Below are positions 3,487 to 26,373 of a stretch of DNA of 26,373 nt, piece by piece. Origin of the DNA: a virus. Location of the stretch: the IMG/VR virus record IMGVR_UViG_3300048445_000053, positions 1 to 26,373 of that record; one strand, written 5' to 3'. The translations under genes were made by a program, and so were the position numbers. Below the pieces are notes generated by a model, which saw only the letters and a program-made list of their open reading frames with translations, was not told where the DNA came from and made no database searches. Position 1 is the first letter of the stretch; every line of letters starts with the position of its first letter.

Positions 3487-4239
3487 ATGAGTGATTATAC
3501 AAAAGCAACTAACTTCACGTTAAAAGATGGATTAACTACAGGTGATCCTCAGAAGATTATTAAAGGTTCTGAGATAGATGCAGAGTATAACGCTATTGCG
3601 TCTGCTGTTTCATCTAAGGCTGATCTAAATAGTCCTACGTTTACAGGTACACCATCAGCACCTACAGCATCTACAGGAACATCTAGTACACAAGTAGCTA
3701 CAACAGCGTTTGTGCAGTCAGCTTTAGTTGGTGCGTATCCTGTTGGTTCTATTTACATGAACGCTACTGTAGCTACTAATCCTGCTACCTTGTTAGGTTT
3801 TGGTACTTGGGTAGCGTTTGGTGCAGGTAAAGTTCCAGTAGGTATAGATACTGGTGACTCAGACTTTAATACTGTAGGAGGAACTGGTGGTAGTAAAACA
3901 AATAGTGTTTCAGTAACTACTTCAGGTACTTCTGGGTCTACTGCACTTACAGAAGCTCAGATGCCAAAACACTATCACAAAATGCGAGGACCAACATTTA
4001 CTACTGGTTATCCTCAAGGAAGTTCAGGATCAAGTGGTATTTATTTTGGTGGAAGTCCTGACGATAGTGGTCATTTATATGGCACTTACTCGACAGGTGG
4101 TGGAGCTACTTCTGCAGGTTATGAAACAGGAACAGGTAATGGTGACGGTCATACTCACAGTATTTCTTCTTCAGGAACTGGTACAGCAGATGTAGTCCAA
4201 CCGTACATCGTAGTTTATATGTGGAAGCGTACAGCTTAA
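3487..4239 (+). CDS. Short tail fibre / receptor-binding collar protein
   Basis: The 250-residue protein has an N-terminal virion-attachment region (about 1-50, with KIIKGSEIDAEYNAIASAV). A repeat-like stalk follows (about 49-80, SPTFTGTPSAPTAS... TTAFVQSAL) and then a C-terminal collar domain starting YPVGSIYMNAT. The C-terminal half carries His motifs (MPKHYHKM and HTHS) resembling the His-x-His metal sites of T4 gp12-type fibre tips, and ends VVQPYIVVYMWKRTA, the standard end of tail-collar domains. It probably trimerises and contacts the host surface. AAGGACA lies 7 bases before the ATG. Gly/Ser-rich variable loops at about 170-215 are the likely specificity region. Confidence 0.85.
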   Translation: MSDYTKATNFTLKDGLTTGDPQKIIKGSEIDAEYNAIASAVSSKADLNSPTFTGTPSAPTASTGTSSTQVATTAFVQSALVGAYPVGSIYMNATVATNPATLLGFGTWVAFGAGKVPVGIDTGDSDFNTVGGTGGSKTNSVSVTTSGTSGSTALTEAQMPKHYHKMRGPTFTTGYPQGSSGSSGIYFGGSPDDSGHLYGTYSTGGGATSAGYETGTGNGDGHTHSISSSGTGTADVVQPYIVVYMWKRTA

Positions 4240-16918: not shown

Positions 16919-18562
16919 TTAATGTGTCGCTGCCCAGTTTAGTCCTACTTTGAATTCCCCGTCCAAAGGGCAACGTAAGTTTAGACGGATTCCTGCTTGA
17001 CGGATGGATTGTACCGCTAAGTGTCCAACCGTGTCTGCATCTTGTTCGGTCGTTTCAATCTGCCATTCATCATGCACATTGGCAACAAACCGAGCATCCA
17101 TATTACCATTAATTAACTTTCTGTTCAATATAATTAATGCTTGCTTCATAACTATTGCACCCGCACCCTGCAGTAATGTGTTCAGCGCAGCGTGTTGTGA
17201 CCTAACAATCAACCTACGACCATCCAGTCCAGGTAACCATTCCTTCTCAGCTAACCGGCTAACCTTGTCCTTCAGCTTCTGCAAGGCTGGCGTGTTCTTT
17301 AAGAAGCTATCGATCAATCGTCTGCCTTCTGGCTCACCACCCCCTACAATCTGTCCGATCTTGGCGGGACCAGCACCATACAGAAACGCATAGATAAACG
17401 TCTTGGCTTGATCCCTGTCAGTCAATCCTGCTGCTTGCATGTTAGCTGTATGGATGTCACCTTCGAGTATCTCTTTCGTGTAGTTCTTATCATCCATGTA
17501 GTGTGCAAGCATTCTCAATTCTAAGCCTGAAGCATCCGCACCCAGTAGTACATTACCGTCCTCTGCTGTCCACACAGATCTACACTCCTCACCGTACTCA
17601 CTACCGACACGCGGGACCTGAGCCAGATTAGGTTTACTGTGCGTCATTCTTCCCGTGATTGCTCCGTTGGTTCTGACCTTACAATGTACCCGTCCCCTTT
17701 CAGATACATTCTCAACCCACGACTTAACTTGAGCCACCCGTTTCTGAAGTAGTAGATATCGTAGAATAGGTTTAGCTTGAGGGATTCTAACAGTTTGTAA
17801 TACTTTCTCATCGACAATCACCGTTCCTTTCTCTGTGTGTTTTCTAGGTTTCCATCCAAGACCCATAAGTCGCTCCGCTATTTGCTTGCGGGAACCTGGG
17901 TTGAATACTTCTACTTTATCCTTCAATCTCTTACCTGTCTTGTCGCTATATCGCTCAGTGGTAATCGGTTGAAAGACTTGCTGCAGTTCTTCTTCAATGT
18001 CCATAAGGCTTTGCTGCCAGTTAGCAAGCATCGACATACACTTCGGTACATCTAGTTTAAATCCGTTTTCTTCCTGCTTTTTAACGACAAGAGCGACCTC
18101 ATGCTCAAGATCAACTGACTGACCCCAGTCCAGTAGACTAGAATCAAGATGCGTAAATAATGCATGAGTAATCTCAACGTCTTGTATACAGTACTCAACC
18201 ATGTCTTCAGACAAGCCACCATCGAAGTCACTGAAGTCCCCTTTTTTTAGCCCTAGCCTCACGCCCCATGAATCGAGAGAGTGTCCTTTTTCTAGGACGG
18301 GGTTTAGTAACCTTGACATTATCAACGTATCTCGTAATGGGTTCGAGTCCGTATTCAAATTCCATAGCTTCTTCAACACTGGTAAGTCGAAGTTGATTAT
18401 GTTGTGACCAATCAACAGGTCTTGATCCTCGATGTATTGGTGTAAGCCGTTTGCTGCTTTCCATACCTTAACCTCCCCTGTATCTATGTCCTTAGTAACC
18501 GCACACCATATCTCGGTAGCGTCTAGGTCATCGGTTTCAATATCAATCGCTAGTCTTTTCAT
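16919..18562 (-). CDS. Family A DNA polymerase with 3'-5' exonuclease (T7 gp5-like)
   Basis: The 547-residue polymerase has an N-terminal proofreading exonuclease: ExoI AIDIET (D7, E9), ExoII HNIINFDLP (D59), ExoIII YCIQDVEIT (Y124, D128). The polymerase motifs follow: A, GADASGLELR (D343); B, RDQAKTFIYAFLYG (R383, K387, Y391); C, NVHDEW (H497, D498, E499). Y391 corresponds to E. coli Pol I position 762, where Tyr is the state linked to fast virulent phages. The order and flanks (VFNPGSR, TGRMTHSKPNLAQVP, LYGAGPAKIGQIVGGG) are clearly T7-like. The thumb has only about 20 residues (198-218) where T7 gp5 carries its roughly 80-residue thioredoxin-binding region, so it probably works without that clamp. 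The ATG overlaps the helicase stop as ATGA. Confidence 0.95.
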   Translation of the reverse strand: MKRLAIDIETDDLDATEIWCAVTKDIDTGEVKVWKAANGLHQYIEDQDLLIGHNIINFDLPVLKKLWNLNTDSNPLRDTLIMSRLLNPVLEKGHSLDSWGVRLGLKKGDFSDFDGGLSEDMVEYCIQDVEITHALFTHLDSSLLDWGQSVDLEHEVALVVKKQEENGFKLDVPKCMSMLANWQQSLMDIEEELQQVFQPITTERYSDKTGKRLKDKVEVFNPGSRKQIAERLMGLGWKPRKHTEKGTVIVDEKVLQTVRIPQAKPILRYLLLQKRVAQVKSWVENVSERGRVHCKVRTNGAITGRMTHSKPNLAQVPRVGSEYGEECRSVWTAEDGNVLLGADASGLELRMLAHYMDDKNYTKEILEGDIHTANMQAAGLTDRDQAKTFIYAFLYGAGPAKIGQIVGGGEPEGRRLIDSFLKNTPALQKLKDKVSRLAEKEWLPGLDGRRLIVRSQHAALNTLLQGAGAIVMKQALIILNRKLINGNMDARFVANVHDEWQIETTEQDADTVGHLAVQSIRQAGIRLNLRCPLDGEFKVGLNWAATH

Positions 18563-20148
18563 AGCGCATCCTCATCATGTTTTTCAGTCATCCTACCAGT
18601 TTGTTTATTGTACAACAACCGGCAAGCGGGACCAGTGAGACCACTGAATCTATTCTTCAGGACACGCACCCTAGTGGTATGTCTTTCTTCTTCATCATTA
18701 TGCTGACCGTTACGCTCAAGACCTATGACAATATCCGCAACGTTACCCTGAGCCGATGACCCTTTAAGATGTGCTAGACTAGTTACTGCTCCTTCCTCGT
18801 GACCCTTACCCTCAGGTCTCTTCAGGTGCGACACACCGAACAAACATATCCCAGTCTCTTTAACCAAGATACGCAACTCCCGCATGATCTCTTCCAGTGC
18901 TTCCCGCTCTGACCCTCGCTCCGCTCCTGCAACAATGATAGATATGTGATCGAGGAAGATGTACTTACAGTCAAGAGCCTTAGCCATGTAACGCACACGT
19001 TGGACTATCTTGTCCTTGTCTAGCTCACCGTTACTATCGAGTAGAAACAATCGACCAGTGCCTAACGTAGCCTCGAAAGACTCCCGCAGTTCTTCGTCCG
19101 ATACTTTGGTAGTGGGTAGGTGCAGTAGTTTGTTGGCGTGTAGTGACATCATTGACCGAGCAGTGGTACGCACCGTCTCTTCTAGGAACAATAGTCCTAT
19201 GTTGTCTTTACTGTTGTTCAGGATATGGTAGACAAACTCCCGCATGAACTGGGACTTACCGAGACCTGAACCGGCAGCTACAATCACCATCTCGTTAGGT
19301 CTGATACCATAAGTCAGATCATTCAGTCCCTTGTATGGATAGTTGATCAGGCTGTCTTCCATTGGCTTCCTCACTATATCCCATAAAGTACTACCGTCCA
19401 CGATACCGTCAGGAACATACCTCTGACATTGCCACCATCGTTCCAGGAATCGTTCGCCTCTGTTGTTCTGTAAGTAATCGCTGGCATCTTTATGATCGGG
19501 ATCAGACTTGAATATCTTAGCCTTCGATCCAAACAATTCTGCTACCTGCTTAGCTGCTTCCTGTCCTTGCGGGTCTGAGTCAAAACAAATGTGAATGTTT
19601 TCAAAAGAGTCAATGTATTCGTAGTTATTCTTACAATCTGCTACTGCTGACCCTGCACCATTACGCACACTACACACGGCATACTTAGCTGTACCGCCCA
19701 TCATTTGCCACGCTGAGCACGCATCAAACTCGCCCTCTGTCAGCGTTAAAATAGACTGACCGGATGGAAACAAGTGCTGTCCGAACAACTTACCTGCTTG
19801 CCAGTTACCGTCAGTATGGAATTGTTTCTTGGTAGTGCTACGTTTTTTATATGCGACAAGGTTACCATCATCATCGCAATATGGAAAATGATAGTGACCG
19901 TTTGCTTCGACAAGACCAAAGAATTCGCAAGTGCTTTTACTTATATTGCGATCAACAATGCTCCGAGTAACTCCTGGAACATAACGAAAACCTTTGCTTA
20001 CTGCTTTTAATCTAGTTATCCCTGCGTTTTCTGCATCGAATACAGACTTATCGCAACTAAAACACTTAGTACCCCAGTCATAAATCGTCAAAGCGTCTGA
20101 CGATCCACAATCAGGACATGGTTGATGCGTTAATATTTGGACACCCAT
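18559..20148 (-). CDS. Bifunctional DNA primase-helicase (T7 gp4-like)
   Basis: The 529-residue protein has an N-terminal zinc-binding module (CPDC...CFSC; C11, C14, C29, C32) for primase template recognition and a TOPRIM domain (TLTEGEFDAC, E138; ICFDSDPQG, D190 and D192). A RecA-type SF4 helicase domain follows, with Walker A AAGSGLGKS (291-299), catalytic acidic FLEET (E323/E324) and Walker B YIFLDHISIIV (about 396-406). Length is close to T7 gp4 (566 aa). The C-terminus is short and mildly acidic (HDEDAL). AGGAG lies 7 bases before the ATG. It is preceded by an 87-bp AT-rich gap with repeat elements, the only real break within the minus-strand unit. Confidence 0.95.
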   Translation of the reverse strand: MGVQILTHQPCPDCGSSDALTIYDWGTKCFSCDKSVFDAENAGITRLKAVSKGFRYVPGVTRSIVDRNISKSTCEFFGLVEANGHYHFPYCDDDGNLVAYKKRSTTKKQFHTDGNWQAGKLFGQHLFPSGQSILTLTEGEFDACSAWQMMGGTAKYAVCSVRNGAGSAVADCKNNYEYIDSFENIHICFDSDPQGQEAAKQVAELFGSKAKIFKSDPDHKDASDYLQNNRGERFLERWWQCQRYVPDGIVDGSTLWDIVRKPMEDSLINYPYKGLNDLTYGIRPNEMVIVAAGSGLGKSQFMREFVYHILNNSKDNIGLLFLEETVRTTARSMMSLHANKLLHLPTTKVSDEELRESFEATLGTGRLFLLDSNGELDKDKIVQRVRYMAKALDCKYIFLDHISIIVAGAERGSEREALEEIMRELRILVKETGICLFGVSHLKRPEGKGHEEGAVTSLAHLKGSSAQGNVADIVIGLERNGQHNDEEERHTTRVRVLKNRFSGLTGPACRLLYNKQTGRMTEKHDEDAL

Positions 20149-20175
20149 AATTCATCTCCTTCTATATATACTATA

Positions 20176-20193
20176 TAGTAACTATTAGTAACT
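20176..20193 (-). repeat. 18-bp shared leader element, primase copy
   Basis: On the minus strand this reads AGTTACTAATAGTTACTA, identical to 24522-24539 on the plus strand. It is two 10-bp-spaced copies of a TAGTNACTA dyad. It ends 27 bases before the primase-helicase ATG. Confidence 0.8.
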
Positions 20194-20207
20194 TTTAAAT
20201 CTATTAG

Positions 20208-20223
20208 TCATTCTAGTTAAATA
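20208..20223 (+). repeat. 16-bp direct repeat, copy 1
   Basis: TCATTCTAGTTAAATA is identical to 24467-24482 and centred on a CTAG quasi-palindrome (TTCTAGTTAA). It is in direct orientation on the DNA, so its orientation relative to the two downstream genes is opposite. Confidence 0.75.
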
Positions 20224-20235
20224 ATAATATTAATA

Positions 20236-20397
20236 TTAATTAACCATAGACTTAATAGTTTCCGACTGTACAGTTAATTCCAGTAGATCTGATAAGACTC
20301 TTTCAGTACCATGTTCTAACATCAGATCCACCATGTCTGAAAGAACTGACATGTAATGAGCTTCTTCTAAAGATGCTTCGTATTCCTCTTGACTCAT
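20236..20397 (-). CDS. Acidic 53-aa protein, hypothetical
   Basis: A 53-codon frame (starting MSQEEYEASLEEAHYMSVLS) follows AAGGAT and overlaps the preceding TGA as ATGA. It is acidic and entirely helical, with heptad-like hydrophobic spacing (VLSDMVDLMLEHG, VLSDLLELTVQ). It is the last gene of the small-gene cluster before the primase leader. No family is recognised; dimerisation through the helices is plausible. Confidence 0.7.
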   Translation of the reverse strand: MSQEEYEASLEEAHYMSVLSDMVDLMLEHGTERVLSDLLELTVQSETIKSMVN

Positions 20398-20555
20398 GGT
20401 TTATCCTTTTTAAGTTGATTAGTCCAAGTCTTCTCGCTAACAATCTTACCATCAATCAAGAAACGCTTGGTGTGATTTGTCCAAAACAATTGATACTTAG
20501 GCTTACCGTCTCGGAACACTTCGTAAACAGTTTGTGTATCCCTCTCAGAGTTCAT
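20394..20555 (-). CDS. Basic 53-aa protein, hypothetical
   Basis: The start at 20555 is chosen because GGAGG lies 5 bases upstream; this gives 53 residues beginning MNSERDTQTVYEVFRDGKPK. A longer frame to 20585 lacks a comparable SD. The YEVFRDGKPKYQLFWTNHTK and FLIDGKIVSEKTW segments look like a small beta-rich fold with basic and aromatic residues. Function unknown. Confidence 0.65.
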   Translation of the reverse strand: MNSERDTQTVYEVFRDGKPKYQLFWTNHTKRFLIDGKIVSEKTWTNQLKKDKP

Positions 20556-20778
20556 CAGAGCCTCCAGGCTTCGTTGTAATGTCATCAGGGTAGGTTACCC
20601 CTTCGGTATACGTTAGATCATCGTCAGCATGCTTTAAATCAGGTCTATCGAGCATGAACACGTCGTCCATGTCACTGCTCGACAAACAATCGTTACACAA
20701 ATTGACGAATTCTAACTTCAGGTTTTTGCGAGTTGCCTCATAATCTGACAGCAACCCGTCACACGCTACGCACCTCAT
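20545..20778 (-). CDS. Zinc-ribbon protein, 77 aa
   Basis: The N-terminal half has two CxxC knuckles: MRCVACDGLL (C3, C6) and NLCNDCL (C28, C31), separated by YEATRKNLKLEFV. This is a common phage treble-clef or zinc-ribbon pattern (CxAC..LLxDxExxRK..EFxxLCxxC). The C-terminal half is acidic and unstructured. The ATG overlaps the preceding TGA (ATGA). It may bind nucleic acid or host transcription machinery; the target is unknown. Confidence 0.8.
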   Translation of the reverse strand: MRCVACDGLLSDYEATRKNLKLEFVNLCNDCLSSSDMDDVFMLDRPDLKHADDDLTYTEGVTYPDDITTKPGGSDEL

Positions 20779-20951
20779 TCGTTCGCCCAGTACTGATCGT
20801 CTTCGTATCTGAGAACAATCAGCCTATCGTAAGCATCGTCTTGGTTGAGACTACGGTATTGTCCGAGATACTGACACACTTCACCATAGCTCATTGACAA
20901 TACGTCATCAGTGATTTGGTCTAAACGTGCATCGTTGTATTGATTACTCAT
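20775..20951 (-). CDS. Acidic 58-aa protein, hypothetical
   Basis: GGAGGG stands 6 bases upstream of this 58-codon frame (MSNQYNDARLDQITDDVLSM ... VLRYEDDQYWANE). It is acidic and Tyr-rich and overlaps both neighbours through ATGA junctions. It has no recognisable motif, TM or cysteine pattern. The overlaps and SD make it a real gene of unknown role. Confidence 0.75.
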   Translation of the reverse strand: MSNQYNDARLDQITDDVLSMSYGEVCQYLGQYRSLNQDDAYDRLIVLRYEDDQYWANE

Positions 20952-21115
20952 TGTTTACCCTCCTCGCATGAACAATAATAAAACTCCGTACCGTCTTCGC
21001 TATCGTCAATCAACTCGCACTTGTCACAATCAGGGTCAGGCTTACCGAATGGATTGATACCTTGTGACAACAAATCGATTAAGGATTGCTTGGTTTTCTC
21101 TAGGTCTTTAATCAT
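20948..21115 (-). CDS. Cysteine-bearing 55-aa protein, hypothetical
   Basis: A 55-residue frame starts MIKDLEKTKQSLIDLLSQGI (a helix) and continues with PDCDKCELIDD...YYCSC, a CxxC...CxC arrangement that could bind one zinc. Stop and start overlap neighbours (TAATG upstream, ATGA downstream). Function unknown. Confidence 0.7.
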   Translation of the reverse strand: MIKDLEKTKQSLIDLLSQGINPFGKPDPDCDKCELIDDSEDGTEFYYCSCEEGKQ

Positions 21116-21267
21116 TAGTTGTACTCCTCATCGTCAGTGTCAAAGACTAAACAAATCTGCCCTTCGATCCCGCACTCCACCTCATCGAAGTACAGACCTA
21201 CTGATTCAAGTTTACGTTTCAGTTCCTCAACGCTAATCGGTTTGGTTTCTCTCATTTCAAATTTCAT
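21115..21267 (-). CDS. Small 50-aa protein, hypothetical
   Basis: The 50-residue frame reads MKFEMRETKPISVEELKRKL, then LYFDEVECGIEGQICLVFDT and a DDEEYN end, a helix followed by two beta strands. It is joined to both neighbours by TAATG overlaps. No family is recognised. Confidence 0.7.
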   Translation of the reverse strand: MKFEMRETKPISVEELKRKLESVGLYFDEVECGIEGQICLVFDTDDEEYN

Positions 21268-21407
21268 TAGGCGTAATCCTTTTGTAGATAAATGGTTTGT
21301 TCGGCATCACGATTGCCACAGTTACCACACTCCTCAACAAACGTATCTTGTTCGGGATAAACGTGGGAGCAAAGTAAACATTCAACCTCAACTTTTTCAA
21401 ATTCCAT
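21267..21407 (-). CDS. Zinc-ribbon protein, 46 aa
   Basis: Two CxxC pairs (ECLLCSHVY and EECGNCGNRD) spaced by about 14 residues make a minimal rubredoxin or zinc-ribbon knuckle. The protein starts MEFEKVEVEC and ends LQKDYA. It has one-base overlaps on both sides. Small ribbons like this may bind nucleic acid or inhibit host proteins, which I cannot decide here. Confidence 0.75.
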   Translation of the reverse strand: MEFEKVEVECLLCSHVYPEQDTFVEECGNCGNRDAEQTIYLQKDYA

Positions 21408-21616
21408 TAGCCCCAGTCCTTTCTATCGGTCTCATTCTCATAACCTTCGCGGTATTCTGCTATCTCTTCAGGGGTCATATCGGCTTCCTCAATCCTGATA
21501 CCTTTACCCGTCCCGTCAGGATACCAATGCGGACTATACGGTCTCCCGTAGTAAGCGTCTGCTGATCCTCGGTCGAAACAATCACCATGCTTAGGCATTC
21601 GTGTAAGTAAACTCAT
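21407..21616 (-). CDS. Conserved phage protein with DRGSADAYYGRP motif
   Basis: The 69-residue protein contains CFDRGSADAYYGRPYSPHWY and, near the end, ADMTPEEIAEYREGYENETD followed by RKDWG. I recognise this as a short conserved phage protein of unknown function found in many unrelated phages. AAAGGAAAG precedes the ATG. The stop overlaps the next ATG (TAATG). The invariant Asp/Arg/Tyr/His residues look like a small binding or catalytic surface. Confidence 0.8.
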   Translation of the reverse strand: MSLLTRMPKHGDCFDRGSADAYYGRPYSPHWYPDGTGKGIRIEEADMTPEEIAEYREGYENETDRKDWG

Positions 21617-21617
21617 T

Positions 21618-21791
21618 TTACTTTCCTTTCTTTGGTTTGAATAAAAATAAATCTAATGCAGGATCAATCCTATACAAATCATGCAAGGTACGCAACCGCC
21701 CCTGATTATTGTAAACAAAACCTCCCTGCGCTTTCCGGTGTTTCTTCATTAACTGTTCGCGTCTTTGCTGACGCTGTTCGTCAGATAGCAT
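21618..21791 (-). CDS. Basic 57-aa protein, hypothetical
   Basis: The 57-residue frame has a strongly basic helix (SDEQRQQRREQLMKKHRKAQ) followed by GGFVYNNQGRLRTLHDLYRI and an aromatic, basic end (LFLFKPKKGK). It overlaps the upstream 27-aa membrane-peptide gene by 11 bases in another frame. The SD is weak, so translation may depend on coupling. Nucleic-acid binding is plausible from charge only. Confidence 0.6.
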   Translation of the reverse strand: MLSDEQRQQRREQLMKKHRKAQGGFVYNNQGRLRTLHDLYRIDPALDLFLFKPKKGK

Positions 21792-21864
21792 GAGACCACA
21801 TCCAAACCATGATACCTGCGTGTACCAGTGCTAACAATGACAATAGAAAAATCATCCCTTTCAT
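21781..21864 (-). CDS. 27-aa single-pass membrane peptide
   Basis: A 27-codon frame (starting MKGMIFLLSLLALVHAGIMV) is one hydrophobic helix with a Lys at the N-terminus. GGAGG stands 7 bases upstream and the ATG overlaps the methyltransferase TGA (ATGA), both strong signs of translation. The early position makes superinfection exclusion or host-membrane modulation conceivable, but there is no direct evidence. Confidence 0.65.
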   Translation of the reverse strand: MKGMIFLLSLLALVHAGIMVWMWSHAI

Positions 21865-22610
21865 CGTGTTACCTCCGCTTTGTTAGCCTCGAAGACCGCC
21901 CTCGCAAATCCTCTTGGCGTAGCGCTCCGAATGTTCTTTGTACGCATCGACTTACCGCCTAACTTGCGGTGCTGTCTGCTACTGCCGAACGACTCACAGT
22001 CCACCGGCTTTTTCTTAGGTAATCTAAACCCACCGCCAGTCCACAGACACGTCTTCTTGGAGTATGCGTCACGCGGTGCGATGTATTCAGGGTACAGCGG
22101 GTGATCTGCCTCAGCTTCAGGGATGTAACCGCCATACTCGAAAGGTTGGAAACAATAGTCCGGCTTACGCCATAACGTAGCTAACCGGCTTACAGGATTC
22201 TCCACCATGTAGGGAACCTCTAACAATGACGCAAGCATAGCGGACGCTTTAGCGTGGTCAGTGGCTTCGATCTGGAAACGTGGATTCTTTTCTGCCTTAG
22301 TTTTAAAATGTGCCGCCCCACTGACAGCTAGATCAAAACAGGGAACAAAACTAAAAACCATGTGCGTCTTATAACTGTGACGCTTCAACAATTTGAATAT
22401 GAACGGGTAGAACTCGAAGCCTTTATCGTCCTTCATGGTTTCCTGTAAGTCCATACTGATCTTGGTAATGCTTCCGCCTCCCTCGTAGTGGACTGTTTCA
22501 CCTTCTTCGGTGTGCTGTATGTCATAGCAGAAACACTCATAACCGGCACGCGCCCAAGGTTCGACAGCTACGCCCGTAAAATCGTATAAACTAACAATCT
22601 GATTTTTCAT
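21861..22610 (-). CDS. DNA cytosine methyltransferase-like protein
   Basis: The 249-residue protein has SLYDFTGVAVEPWARAGYEC (degenerate SAM-binding motif I near residues 7-26) and SFVPCFDLAVSGAAHF (motif IV-like, C91). It also has MVENPVSRLATLWRKPDY (ENP motif), then APRDAYSKKTCLWTGGGF and a C-terminal SATPRGFARAVFEA. This matches a phage family annotated as cytosine-5 methyltransferase. The usual PPC is VPC here, but the nucleophile Cys is kept. It could protect phage DNA from restriction. No cognate restriction enzyme is nearby. It overlaps its neighbours by 20 and 4 bases. Confidence 0.75.
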   Translation of the reverse strand: MKNQIVSLYDFTGVAVEPWARAGYECFCYDIQHTEEGETVHYEGGGSITKISMDLQETMKDDKGFEFYPFIFKLLKRHSYKTHMVFSFVPCFDLAVSGAAHFKTKAEKNPRFQIEATDHAKASAMLASLLEVPYMVENPVSRLATLWRKPDYCFQPFEYGGYIPEAEADHPLYPEYIAPRDAYSKKTCLWTGGGFRLPKKKPVDCESFGSSRQHRKLGGKSMRTKNIRSATPRGFARAVFEANKAEVTR

Positions 22611-22764
22611 TTACTTCCCTTTCATCATCGTTAAAAAAACCTTTTTGATTTAACTCTTCATCAGTCCAGTAACCCTCACACGATCTACAAAGCCACCCGT
22701 TACGGTAGCTGTGCAGTGCTCGTTCATCCTCGAGTTCTCCGCATAGGTCGCAAGTGCTACTCAT
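22591..22764 (-). CDS. Zinc-ribbon protein, 57 aa
   Basis: The 57-residue frame has STCDLCGEL and WLCRSCEGYW, two CxxC knuckles spaced like a small zinc ribbon or treble clef, then an acidic tail (DEELNQKGFFNDDEREVNEK). AAGGGG precedes the ATG. It overlaps the methyltransferase start by 20 bases. Function unknown; it is one of at least three CxxC...CxxC proteins in this operon. Confidence 0.75.
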   Translation of the reverse strand: MSSTCDLCGELEDERALHSYRNGWLCRSCEGYWTDEELNQKGFFNDDEREVNEKSDC

Positions 22765-22912
22765 TGTCTGCCCCTTTCTTCAATGTCTTTTCTAATTCGT
22801 AAAGCGTGAGTAGTGAAAACAATAAACCATTCTCTAACGCTACGTCTTTAATCTTTTTCGCACGCTCATAGCACGCGTTCAACTCGAATTCTAAATCTTC
22901 AATATGTTTCAT
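22757..22912 (-). CDS. Helical 51-aa protein, hypothetical
   Basis: A 51-residue, fully helical frame (MKHIEDLEFELNACYERAKK ... LLTLYELEKTLKKGADNE) is preceded by AAAGGG. It overlaps the next gene by 8 bases. Regularly spaced leucines suggest a coiled coil. No family is recognised. Confidence 0.7.
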   Translation of the reverse strand: MKHIEDLEFELNACYERAKKIKDVALENGLLFSLLTLYELEKTLKKGADNE

Positions 22913-22915
22913 GGT

Positions 22916-23554
22916 TTACCCTTTCATTATGTTAATAACGCGCTCCATCTTCTTACCGTGCGCGATGTATCCAATTACCGGAATAGATTTATCCCAACAC
23001 TTTCGACAAGTCCCACACTTACCCGCATTATCGTAAGCATGACACACTGATACACCTTTGGGTATGGTGCTACCCTCGGGAATGATTGTAGACCCGTGGT
23101 GCGCTTCAAATTCGCCCGTGACGCTATCGCTTGACAGTCTAACGGATACGTTAGGTAATGCCTTCATATGCTCGATAATCGTCTTAAACTTAGCGAATTT
23201 GTGCATTCTTGTCGGTATCCAATGCTTTACCCATGGCGTGAGTTTCATCACTTCGTAAATCTTAACGGCTAAGCGCAAAGAGTACATATCGCCACTGTCA
23301 AACCACCTAAAATAGCGATCATTATCTAACTGTTGCACCATGTCTTCGACCCACTCCGAACGCTTCCAATCTTGCTGATTTTCTAGGCGTGGCGCTTTAA
23401 CATTCGGAAATCTATAGTTCCCTGTTGTAGCGTAACATCCCTTACACGCGTCAACTAATTCGCCATTAGATTTCTTCGAAGCTGGGCAAGTGGTTAATGC
23501 TTCAAGACTCCATGAACGGCACGGCATTTTTGAGGCTTTAGATAATCTAATCAT
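22916..23554 (-). CDS. GP88-family-like cysteine-rich protein
   Basis: From ATG 23554 (TAATG overlap) the protein has 212 residues. Cysteines cluster at both ends: MPCRSW (C12), TTCP (C23), DACKGCYA (C37, C40), and C171 with KCGTCRKCW (C180, C183, C186), suggesting metal or Fe-S binding. The opening PCRSWSLEALTTCP, then CKGCYATTGNYRF, together with FRWFDSGDMYS and VRLSSDSV, matches the phage family called Gene product 88 (from a mycobacteriophage), whose biochemical role I do not know. The segments FDSGD and RLSSDS could be a nucleotide- or phosphate-binding site. Confidence 0.75.
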   Translation of the reverse strand: MIRLSKASKMPCRSWSLEALTTCPASKKSNGELVDACKGCYATTGNYRFPNVKAPRLENQQDWKRSEWVEDMVQQLDNDRYFRWFDSGDMYSLRLAVKIYEVMKLTPWVKHWIPTRMHKFAKFKTIIEHMKALPNVSVRLSSDSVTGEFEAHHGSTIIPEGSTIPKGVSVCHAYDNAGKCGTCRKCWDKSIPVIGYIAHGKKMERVINIMKG

Positions 23555-23727
23555 TATGCTTTCTCCCATTCGAACGCGTAAGCGTCAATCTTTATATATT
23601 CGTCTTCATCGTGACAGTACGCCACATAAACCGTGCCGTCTAAATCCGCATTAGGTGAAACCGATACATCAAGAGCGTACTCAACATTGGTAGCGTGGTA
23701 TCTAATCCAATTTGAACGATCAATCAT
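23554..23727 (-). CDS. Acidic 57-aa protein, hypothetical
   Basis: This 57-residue frame (MIDRSNWIRYHATNVEYALD ... AYAFEWEKA) is joined to both neighbours by TAATG overlaps. The alternating pattern LDGTVYVAYCHDEDEYIKID suggests an antiparallel beta hairpin. Function unknown. Confidence 0.7.
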   Translation of the reverse strand: MIDRSNWIRYHATNVEYALDVSVSPNADLDGTVYVAYCHDEDEYIKIDAYAFEWEKA

Positions 23728-23915
23728 TATGCAATTCCCTTTCCTTTTAATTGTTCTATTGCGTCCATTGCGTCTACAGCGTCAAACAAACTACCGACAG
23801 CACCATAAGCGCGAAGACAATACGCCATTTCGTCTGTTGCTCGGCGTTTAACTACATCCATGACAATAGAATCATTCATTAATTCGTTAAGTATTTCGTT
23901 ATATCTTTTTTTCAT
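23727..23915 (-). CDS. First gene of the minus-strand unit, 62-aa hypothetical
   Basis: ATG 23915 is chosen because GGGAAG lies just upstream; it gives 62 residues beginning MKKRYNEILNELMNDSIVMD. In-frame ATGs further upstream (up to 23972) lack an SD. The protein is helical, with an Ala/Asp-rich C-terminal half (GSLFDAVDAMDAIEQLKGKG). It is promoter-proximal in the replication operon, so it should be among the earliest products. Function unknown. Confidence 0.65.
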   Translation of the reverse strand: MKKRYNEILNELMNDSIVMDVVKRRATDEMAYCLRAYGAVGSLFDAVDAMDAIEQLKGKGIA

Positions 23916-23978
23916 TTGCTTCCCTTTCGTTATGTTGCATTGCGTCATTAATTGGTTTGTTTCGTGCGACAAACGAAT

Positions 23979-24006
23979 CCTATAATTATTACTTTGTACT
24001 AGTCAA
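23979..24006 (-). promoter_or_regulatory. Putative sigma70 promoter, minus strand, proximal
   Basis: On the minus strand TTGACT (24006-24001) is separated by 16 bases from TATAGG (23984-23979). It would direct transcription into the replication unit starting at 23915. Confidence 0.45.
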
Positions 24007-24051
24007 TACCTAGTGTCTTAATTGTCATAACTTTGCCATAACTCCATAGCG

Positions 24052-24079
24052 CCTATATATAAAGGTATACCCCTATCAA
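24052..24079 (-). promoter_or_regulatory. Putative sigma70 promoter, minus strand, distal
   Basis: On the minus strand TTGATA (24079-24074) and TATAGG (24057-24052) are 16 bases apart, the same architecture as the proximal copy. The spacer contains a GGTATACC palindrome that could be an operator. Confidence 0.4.
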
Positions 24080-24160
24080 TTATTTTTATAGTACGACCTA
24101 GTCTATTAATTCATCGCTAAAAGGTACATAAACGCCACACACTTTTACGACTGTTCAGTA

Positions 24161-24216
24161 ACTCTTATAACTCTTATGTCTTATATAAGAGTACTCTTAT
24201 GTATTATATAAGACCT
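24161..24216. repeat. 23-bp tandem repeat with nested palindromes
   Basis: Units at 24171-24193 and 24194-24216 agree at 19 of their first 20 positions (CTCTTATGT, then one variable base, then TTATATAAGA). A further partial copy, ACTCTTATA, lies at 24161-24169. Within it, TCTTATATAAGA (24179-24190) and ATAAGAGTACTCTTAT (24185-24200) are perfect palindromes. This could be an operator array or origin iterons. Confidence 0.8.
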
Positions 24217-24224
24217 GTAAAGAC

Positions 24225-24290
24225 ATGGGGGGAGTGCCAACAACACCGGGAGCGACCGTAGAGCACCTTAACAGACACAAAAAAGGCTAA
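24225..24290 (+). CDS. Possible 21-aa peptide in the control region
   Basis: A frame from ATG 24225 reads MGGVPTTPGATVEHLNRHKK and one more residue before TAA. It coincides with the only GC-richer stretch of the control region. There is no good Shine-Dalgarno (only GTAAAG upstream) and it lies upstream of the strong plus-strand promoter. It may be a leader peptide, or the composition may reflect a structured site instead. Confidence 0.25.
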   Translation: MGGVPTTPGATVEHLNRHKKG

Positions 24291-24401
24291 AATAGGCATA
24301 ATACTGCATAAATTAAAGAGTAACTATGTAGAAAAAAGACATTTAGAATTAATGGTTTATAATATATAACTAGATAGCGTCCATTTAGAATAAAAAAGGA
24401 C

Positions 24402-24430
24402 TTGACAAAGGGCTAAAAGTATGCTAGAAT
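24402..24430 (+). promoter_or_regulatory. Strong sigma70-type promoter before the terminase unit
   Basis: TTGACA (24402-24407), a 17-base spacer and TAGAAT (24425-24430) with an extended -10 TGC make a near-consensus host promoter. Transcription should start near 24437, giving a roughly 125-base leader before the terminase small-subunit gene. Confidence 0.75.
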
Positions 24431-24466
24431 CAACCCACTATACAGCACATTCGGACAACACTATAT

Positions 24467-24482
24467 TCATTCTAGTTAAATA
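24467..24482 (+). repeat. 16-bp direct repeat, copy 2
   Basis: TCATTCTAGTTAAATA is identical to 20208-20223. It lies in the predicted leader of the terminase unit. Confidence 0.75.
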
Positions 24483-24521
24483 TTAATATAAATAATGTCA
24501 AATATCTGTATAGATATTAAT

Positions 24522-24539
24522 AGTTACTAATAGTTACTA
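24522..24539 (+). repeat. 18-bp shared leader element, terminase copy
   Basis: AGTTACTAATAGTTACTA is identical to the minus-strand sequence at 20193-20176. It ends 24 bases before the TTG start of the small terminase gene, with AAAAGGA in between. Two TAGTTACTA dyads are spaced one helical turn apart. Confidence 0.8.
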
Positions 24540-24563
24540 AACAGTACTAAAAGGATAAACATT

Positions 24564-24965
24564 TTGTCCCTTGAAGATTCGAAGCCTGTAAAAAGAGGGC
24601 GTGGCAGACCTCGAAAGACTGAAGTTGAAGCAAAAAAGAAACGAAATAAAGTTGGTCGTCCTCCAGGTGAGGCAGCTAGGATTAAAGAGTTTCATGCAAG
24701 ACTATTAGCTACGAGTGGTGAAACGGTTATTAACACAATAATCACTAAAGCACTTGATAACGATGACAAAGATCAGGTAGCGTGTCTTAAAATGTGTATT
24801 GACCGTGTGTTACCGATGTCTTATTTTGAAAAGGGTAGGGATGCAGGTAGAGGTAGTGTTAACATTCAGATATCTATGGTAGGCGATAAGCAATCTGAGG
24901 TACTAGAGCAAGAAGAAGTAACTGATGTAGAGTTTGAGACCGTAAATGTCAGACCTGAAGATTAG
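24564..24965 (+). CDS. terS: Terminase small subunit with AT-hook motifs
   Basis: The 133-residue protein starts at a TTG codon 8 bases after AAAAGGA; no ATG start is available. Residues 8-17 (VKRGRGRPRK) and about 29-35 (KVGRPPG) are two AT-hook minor-groove-binding motifs. They are followed by helices (ARIKEFHARLLATSGETVIN, KDQVACLKMCIDRVLPMSYF) and an acidic tail. Its place directly upstream of the large terminase gene, with a 20-base overlap, and its DNA-binding N-terminus identify it as the small subunit that selects phage DNA for packaging. The acidic C-terminus probably contacts the large subunit. Confidence 0.8.
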   Translation: MSLEDSKPVKRGRGRPRKTEVEAKKKRNKVGRPPGEAARIKEFHARLLATSGETVINTIITKALDNDDKDQVACLKMCIDRVLPMSYFEKGRDAGRGSVNIQISMVGDKQSEVLEQEEVTDVEFETVNVRPED

Positions 24966-26217
24966 TTTACTTCCCTGGCAACAGGAGGTCTGGACTGATC
25001 CAGCTAGATTTAAGGTTATAGCTGCTGGTCGTAGGACAGGTAAGAGTAGAATGGCTGCGTGGAGACTCATAGTGTCTGCGTTAGAAGCTGATAAGGGTCA
25101 CGTCTGGTATGTAGCCCCTACTCAGCAACAGGCTAGGGACATTATGTGGCAACAGCTGCTGGAGTTAGGTAATCCGGTCATAGCAAATAGCCATGTAAAC
25201 AACATGCAGTTAACATTGATTAATGGTTCTATCATATCGTTAAAGGGAGCAGATAGACCAGAGACAATGCGGGGTGTAGCTTTAAAGTTTGTCGTACTCG
25301 ATGAGTATGCAGATATTAAACCTACAGTGTTCGAGCAGATTCTTAGACCAGCGTTAGCTGACTTGAAGGGTCACTGTATATTTATTGGTACACCGAAGGG
25401 ACGTAATCACTTCTATGACATCTACAAGATGGGTAGGAGTGAAAAACCAGAAACTAAAGACTGGAAGTCCTGGCACTTTACTAGCTTTGATAATCCACTG
25501 CTAGAAAAGGAAGAGATTGAAATAGCAAAGAACACCATGTCTACGTTCGCATACAGGCAGGAGTTCATGGCTAGTTTTGAAGCACCACAGTCAGAGATAT
25601 TTAAAGAAGACTGGGTGGTAGTCAAAGATAAAGACGATGAGCCAGAGTATGGTACTTACTACATGGCTGTTGACTTGGCAGGTTTTGAGAACGTATCAAA
25701 GCAAGCTAGTAACAAGAAGAAGTACCTAGACCAAACGTCTATAGCTATTGTCAAGGTAGGTGATGACAATAAATGGTGGGTAGATAAGGTTGATGCAGGA
25801 AGGTGGGATATTAAAGAAGTATGCGAGAGAATCCTAAAGCATGTCCAATTATACGGCATTCAAGTAATTGGAATAGAAAAAGGTTCTTTGATGCGAGCGT
25901 TAACACCTTATCTAACAGAGATGATGTTAAAGCAAGGTGTGTATCCAAGAATAGAAGAAATACGACTAGGCAATAAGAGTAAGGTAGACAGAGTTGTAGG
26001 TGCGTTGCAGGGTAGGTTTGAACACAAGCAGGTAGAACTCTGTGATGGTGACTGGGTAAGAGAGTTTAAAGATGAGTTACTAAACTTTCCTACCACTGGT
26101 GTGCATGATGACATGGTTGATTCAGTGAGTCTAATAGCTCACATAGCTAATGCAGCAGTGTACTTTGAAGATGATTTTGATGATTACGAACCCTTAGACA
26201 TTATATCAGGATATTAA
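24946..26217 (+). CDS. terL: Terminase large subunit
   Basis: The 423-residue packaging motor has an ATPase domain with Walker A AAGRRTGKS (26-34), Walker B FVVLDEY (D119, catalytic E120) and a coupling-type segment FIGTPKGRNHFYDIY (about 146-160). The RNase H-like nuclease has MAVDLAG (D243), IGIEKGS (E311) and VHDDMVDS (D388, D389). The ATPase pumps DNA into the procapsid and the nuclease cuts the concatemer. It is short compared with T7 gp19 (586 aa) but has all motifs, so it is a compact TerL. It overlaps terS and is followed by the portal gene. Confidence 0.95.
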   Translation: MSDLKISLLPWQQEVWTDPARFKVIAAGRRTGKSRMAAWRLIVSALEADKGHVWYVAPTQQQARDIMWQQLLELGNPVIANSHVNNMQLTLINGSIISLKGADRPETMRGVALKFVVLDEYADIKPTVFEQILRPALADLKGHCIFIGTPKGRNHFYDIYKMGRSEKPETKDWKSWHFTSFDNPLLEKEEIEIAKNTMSTFAYRQEFMASFEAPQSEIFKEDWVVVKDKDDEPEYGTYYMAVDLAGFENVSKQASNKKKYLDQTSIAIVKVGDDNKWWVDKVDAGRWDIKEVCERILKHVQLYGIQVIGIEKGSLMRALTPYLTEMMLKQGVYPRIEEIRLGNKSKVDRVVGALQGRFEHKQVELCDGDWVREFKDELLNFPTTGVHDDMVDSVSLIAHIANAAVYFEDDFDDYEPLDIISGY

Positions 26218-26218
26218 T

Positions 26219-26373
26219 ATGGCTGAACAATACGCAGAAACAGAATTCACATCAGAGGAAGAAGAAGTAACTCAGAGTGATAGGGAGCTAGTAGCTTTCG
26301 TAGTTGACCACTGTGACAAGTGGAGAGACTGGAGGGATACTAATTATGAAACCAAGTGGGATGAATATGAAAG
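26219..26373 (+). CDS. Portal protein, N-terminal fragment
   Basis: The frame begins one base after the TerL stop (MAEQYAETEFTSEEEEVTQS) and runs off the window after 51 codons. The segment LVAFVVDHCDKWRDWRD, followed by NYETKWDEYE, is typical of the start of podovirus portal (head-tail connector) proteins, which form the dodecameric DNA-entry ring. Identification rests on this motif and the TerS-TerL-portal order. Confidence 0.75.
   Translation, partial: MAEQYAETEFTSEEEEVTQSDRELVAFVVDHCDKWRDWRDTNYETKWDEYE

Follow-up and report, generated by a model that had tools for sequence, protein, structure and literature searches.

Co-varying leader sequences of the primase-helicase and terminase units in a group of uncultivated marine phages

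Gene organization of the window

The window, meaning the whole stretch of DNA that was analyzed, is a 26.4-kb IMG/VR virus record from an uncultivated marine bacterial virus. Its leftward arm encodes DNA polymerase A, primase-helicase, exonuclease, and a cobalamin-type ribonucleotide reductase, and its rightward arm encodes the terminases and virion genes. The primase-helicase gene lies on the minus strand (18559 to 20148), with an ATG start at 20148 and the Shine-Dalgarno (SD) sequence AAGGAG at 20156 to 20161. The first gene of the late unit, on the plus strand (24564 to 24965), encodes a small-terminase-like protein from a TTG start (SD AAGGA, 24551 to 24555) and is followed by the large terminase gene (24946 to 26217, plus strand). 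The leaders of the two units—P for primase-helicase and T for terminase—are 4.3 kb apart and on opposite strands. An AT-hook motif, KRGRGRPRKTE, is present in the small-terminase-like protein and scores barely above the Pfam cutoff. In the divergent intergenic region, ACTCTTATGTnTTATATAAGA occurs in two direct copies 23 bp apart, each with hairpin potential (24170 to 24213). A candidate promoter for the leftward early unit (TTGACT-18-TAGGAT, 9/12; 23977 to 24006, minus strand) is weak and within chance expectation.

Searches of the window against Rfam 15 gave no match above the gathering threshold. A search for T7-type RNA polymerase (PF00940), the one type covered, gave no match in the 36.2-kb and 36.9-kb relatives of the window and a match at 1.7e-98 in another record. 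Within the phage isolate collection, the closest primase was ≤47% identical, no large-terminase match covered 80% of the query, and no phage with a similar leader was found. Modules are mosaic among the relatives, with large terminases 92 to 94% identical and primases 44 to 55% identical to those of the window. Mosaic genomes included L102, L104, L113, L116, and others; the match between T and P described below was absent in those tested that had both sites.

Two elements shared by the leaders

The 18-bp sequence AGTTACTAATAGTTACTA (element B) occurs as exact copies at 20193 to 20176 (minus strand), ahead of primase-helicase, and at 24522 to 24539 (plus strand), ahead of the small-terminase-like gene. 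An earlier note had pointed out this pair, and exact matching reproduced it, including the distance to the start codon (27 bases for the ATG at 20148, 24 for the TTG at 24564) and the SD after each copy. The dyad unit said to be repeated in each copy is present twice as TAGTNACTA in the terminase copy and once in the primase copy, where the first unit is AAGTTACTA. Element B is quasi-palindromic and has a periodicity of 10 bp, and identity around it reaches about 30 bp at 90%. Allowing up to three mismatches, four matches were found in the window against 0.08 expected, and none of 100 shuffles reached four. Two of these matches are exact and the other two overlap the terminase copy, leaving no stray copies, which the note had named as a way for its idea to fail. 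The 18-mer repeat is real, limited to these two sites in the window, and beyond chance.

Outside the window, the exact 18-mer was found in eight stretches among 2.9 million viral contigs, five of which belong to this phage group and fall at these two sites; the 36.2-kb relative (loci L004 and L010) has it exactly twice, in the same two places. Matches in L005, L007, and L011 were taken as chance: L007 and L011 have no nearby window protein, and the sole likeness of L005 to a window protein is a 30% methyltransferase match. In L011, AGTTACTAAT units stand in tandem (3862 to 3889), so that the 18-mer is matched twice, 10 bp apart; none of the window proteins tested was detected in this contig. 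In the 36.9-kb relative, whose primase is 79% identical, the core of B (TAGTTACTAATAG, ≤1 mismatch) is found only before primase and terminase.

The second shared block is longer. Segment A (24464 to 24494, plus strand) lies in T, and its reverse complement in the message sense, A′ (20205 to 20235, minus strand), lies in P; the two blocks are 31 nt long, 90% identical, and in the same plus-strand sense, and A′ is the best match to A in the window. Since primase-helicase is read from the minus strand and terminase from the plus strand, T leader RNA is complementary to P leader RNA over A. The earlier note missed this block, which is antisense between the two messages and forms the bulk of the evidence presented here.

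The two elements behave differently in relatives. Where primase is 76 to 80% identical, P retains AGTTTCTAATAG or CTAATAG although A′ is fully different, and T retains TAGTTACTAATAG; once primase identity falls to about 67%, B is no longer present. In the window, L021, and L034, B stands in the same sense ahead of both SDs and stays constant while A changes. The expectation that related phages keep the same distance to the start codons did not hold, as spacing drifts from 27 (primase) and 24 (terminase) in the window to about 38 and 20 nt in L021. Judged by these comparisons, B is an element separate from A that is oriented alike in the two leaders. A single phage or host factor, acting at the level of RNA or DNA, probably uses it as a further common site beside the ribosome-binding sites of both genes.

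Promoter and co-varying stem of the terminase leader

The terminase unit has a strong host-type sigma-70 promoter, TTGACA-17-TAGAAT with a TG extension (24402 to 24430, plus strand; 11/12 matches), and relatives have equivalent promoters upstream of terS. Many relatives (L098, L160, L121, and others) also have a second strong sigma-70 promoter in the late arm, after the portal region and several kilobases downstream of the terminase promoter. Downstream of its promoter, T opens with a stem, CUAUACAG/CUGUAUAG, whose 5′ arm S1 (CTATACAG, 24438 to 24445, plus strand) begins 7 nt past the −10 box, at about +1, and whose 3′ arm S1′ (CTGTATAG, 24506 to 24513, plus strand) co-varies with it. Segment A is in the predicted loop of this stem, which would expose the complementary segment in a structured RNA, and the terminase copy of B lies between S1′ and the SD.

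Every lineage has S1 5 to 9 bases past the −10 box, near the predicted +1, and S1′ about 70 nt further on. In a structure-blind alignment of 22 lineages, with rows drawn from loci in which a consensus promoter was found (a selection effect), the eight pairs were formed in 98.9% of cells, including 22 cells with both sides changed, and U-G and G-U pairs occurred at the ends. When the partner was slid by 1 to 3 columns, pairing fell to 10 to 48%. Variants include CTATACAG/CTGTATAG, CTATGTAG/CTACATAG, CTATTGAG/CTCAATAG, CTATAGAG/CTCTATAG, and CTAAATAG/CTATTTAG. This is good evidence for a 5′-terminal RNA stem, with a small residual chance that S1 and S1′ are instead two co-evolving inverted DNA half-sites.

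The promoter also bears on the suggestion, made in the earlier note, that the 18-mer is a phage-specific promoter. The terminase copy of B is placed not at the predicted sigma-70 transcript start but ~85 to 100 nt downstream of it, no fitting −35 box accompanies the primase copy in the window's clade, and the two relatives searched lack a T7-type polymerase. The drift in spacing and the loss of B in more distant relatives, described above, also speak against a promoter. A phage-polymerase promoter is accordingly an unlikely reading of the 18-mer.

The primase leader and its promoters

The most deeply conserved block of P is CTATATAGTATATATAG (20162 to 20178, minus strand), which takes the form CTATATAG-T-TATATA in most relatives and can form a short hairpin directly ahead of the SD. 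In the window's clade, the antisense promoter seen at primase in sister lineages (below) has no recognizable −35 box; what is left of it, TATATA-CTATATAG, is better conserved than any other part of P.

Sister lineages vary in their promoters at this site. L144/L358, L222, L213, L167, and L224 have a consensus sigma-70 promoter antisense to primase (TTGACA-17-TATAAT or TATACT, TG extended, then CTANNTAG) whose −35 box overlaps the primase start codon; since it points away from primase, it would make an RNA antisense to the primase leader. L182, L260, L068, L190, and L248 have a sense sigma-70 promoter upstream of the primase operon, with CTANNTAG-like sites 1 to 4 nt past the −10 box. Among the relatives, CTANNTAG directly follows the −10 box of many promoters on either strand. 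As a genome-wide operator, it was rejected, with 7 occurrences in the window versus 11 expected. The T leader of L182 contains TCCTAAG, which is complementary to the CTTAGGA SD region of its primase operon.

Matching of the leaders within genomes

Segment A is 20 to 35 or 36 nt long, differs in sequence between lineages, and matches P within its own genome. Its variants are CATTCTAGTTAAAT in the window, GAAACTATTCAAACC plus an AT run in L021, TATATGGTyCAyTTAATAAT in L034, TTATAGACTAmTAGAAAAACC in L032, and ACTAGGTwGGAAA in L209. Picked A segments gave low off-diagonal scores across lineages, the off-diagonal being the only informative part, as these segments were chosen for their match.

Unpicked tests of T:P pairing used fixed windows. 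The T:P duplex energy beat that of dinucleotide-shuffled T in seven of eight lineages, with shuffles as good numbering 0/200 in the window, 0 in L021, L032, and L209, 1 in L034, 3 in L051, and 6 in L144; L039 had no match. For the gain in energy upon co-folding, the true pairing of T with P was the best of 40,320 arrangements of the eight lineages. Across 18 lineages, none of 200,000 random pairings was as good as the true one (270/200,000 for a subset of 6 lineages and 2,665/200,000 for 12). The signal is carried by the clade of the window and by L144/L358 and is absent from most other lineages. Most lineages at 44 to 58% primase identity had no T/P match, and about half of the wider lineages tested lacked it.

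The best match of the T loop within the window or locus was P in the window, L021, L034, L032, L144, and L209 and lay 300 to 480 bp upstream of primase in L260, L182, and L068, at the place of their sense promoter for the primase operon; in all nine, T was complementary in sense to primase-operon RNA. Mismatches tolerated by G-U pairing outnumbered others by 17:9, in the expected direction, which is weak and not decisive. Within the larger set, some mismatched pairs gain more upon co-folding than the window's own pair (−12.3), and so does the window's T with the opposite strand of P (−25.6), owing to B: the perfect 18-mer makes T complementary also to the strand opposite P, adding cross-matching. 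Two further candidates were rejected. A compensatory change expected in the L182 lineage was not seen, as P varies and T hardly does, and the match there rests on fixed ends that include the anti-SD stretch in T. A match found by eye in L022 (CTTTATGGATC..CCATAA) had a gain of −14.0, no better than that of the best mismatched pair (−17.5).

By these comparisons, the T and P leaders co-vary. Together with the presence of B at both sites in close relatives, this supports the earlier note's proposal of common control of both units.

Possible basis of the co-variation

Shared elements, stem, promoter, and co-variation of T and P are established at the level of sequence; we infer that the co-variation reflects RNA pairing. 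RNA-level coupling of the two leaders, with the 18-mer as part of two co-evolving leaders, is the explanation that we favor, at slightly less than an even chance. It is favored because T and P are in opposite senses, which fits pairing better than it fits two operator copies; because A is long and placed in the loop of a co-varying stem; and because sister lineages have antisense promoters and mismatches compatible with G-U pairing are mildly in excess. Counting against it, DNA repeats in the same plus-strand sense would yield equal complementarity, L039 and most lineages at 44 to 58% primase identity are unmatched, no terminator was found, and A′ does not reach over the SD in the window's clade.

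A more specific form of RNA pairing is somewhat more tentative, namely, that T is a trans-acting antisense regulator of the primase-helicase message, its loop and the target co-evolving in each lineage, and switches the phage from replication to packaging. After activation of the late promoter, T leader RNA would carry a closed S1/S1′ stem with A in its loop, make its first contact with the primase leader in trans through that loop, and then extend the duplex. The T:P duplex would lower translation or stability of the primase-helicase message and would in this way couple the shift from replication to packaging. The opposite direction is equally possible, in which the primase message titrates the terminase leader.

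The main rival, which we consider less likely and which sequence separates only in part from RNA coupling, is that A and B are DNA sites of a phage regulator near both promoters, with its specificity shifting along with both sites. Such a regulator would keep A equal at both sites, and A indeed has the same plus-strand sense at both. The quasi-palindromic B would suit it, the position of CTANNTAG after −10 boxes on either strand hints at some protein acting there, and sister lineages have a sigma-70 promoter at the primase site, in either the sense (L182, L260, and L068) or the antisense (L144/L358, L213, and L167) direction. However, A is not palindromic and is 20 to 36 nt long, S1 is often non-palindromic (CTATTGAG and CTATAGAG) yet nearly always complements S1′, and CTANNTAG is not enriched across the window. 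The small early proteins tested also gave no match to a DNA-binding family in Pfam or PHROGs, where such proteins often go unrecognized.

A further rival, which is improbable, holds that the leaders are ancient duplicates of a single promoter region whose likeness recombination or gene conversion maintains in each lineage, with no regulatory pairing. The leaders are homologous in places (in L021, an S1-like site, A, and a TTAATACT block follow in the same plus-strand order), and the modules of these genomes are mosaic, as noted above for large terminase and primase. Yet only A and B match while the intervening sequence does not, a match of 20 to 36 bp at 3 to 5 kb is short for conversion, and sense and position are constant across lineages. 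More improbable still is that B alone is a translational operator beside the SD, through which a single RNA-binding protein would repress or activate the two messages: B does precede both SDs in the same sense and is stable while A changes, but it stands at varying distances from the start codon, is lost at about 67% primase identity, and leaves A unexplained.

Should RNA pairing be the mechanism, a coding message would double as a regulator of the opposite arm, and a phage without its own RNA polymerase would have an RNA-based switch, possibly with lineage-specific (heteroimmune-like) recognition. The timing of replication and packaging in phages that use host RNA polymerase throughout is poorly known, and the leaders described here provide a sequence-specific link between two transcription units, shared by many uncultivated marine phages of one large group. 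If the leaders do pair as RNA, their naturally matched loops and targets would also supply ready-made orthogonal RNA pairs.

Comparison with known systems

The genome plan of the window is that of cobaviruses and SIO1-like podoviruses, which have replication and virion arms in opposite directions and a cobalamin-dependent ribonucleotide reductase (PMC6775973). SIO1 has no RNA polymerase gene (PMC6775973). The primase-helicase of the window is about 42% identical to that of SIO1, and, unlike that group, the window has no close relative among the isolates of the collection searched (primase ≤47%).

Lambda OOP and P22 sar are phage antisense RNAs that lower the expression of a phage gene (PMC12197685). 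Some sister lineages here resemble these systems in having an antisense promoter that overlaps the primase start. OOP and sar are short transcripts that arise on the strand opposite their target genes or beside them, and each ends at a terminator of its own. In contrast, complementarity here is in trans, and no terminator-like site was found from 19900 to 26373 by which the leader would end as a discrete small RNA. We do not class T as a phage small RNA because it is part of the terminase message.

The c4 antisense RNA of phages P1 and P7 pairs with phage mRNA around the ribosome-binding site, supposedly through complementarity borne in loops, and its sequence-specific loops differ between related phages (PMC12197685). 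The pairing predicted here would likewise be near a ribosome-binding site, held in a loop, and lineage specific. The gene under c4 control encodes an antirepressor of temperate phages; the candidate regulator here is the 5′ leader of a packaging message, set against a replication gene 4.3 kb away on the opposite strand. The literature searched contained no description of a packaging leader that complements a replication leader, an absence that is weak evidence. As with phage antisense RNAs that act in trans, we found extended complementarity to the leader of the target mRNA and co-variation of the putative regulator with its target, the latter in the matched lineages. Phage antisense RNAs are known; a match between a packaging leader and a replication leader would, if borne out, be new.
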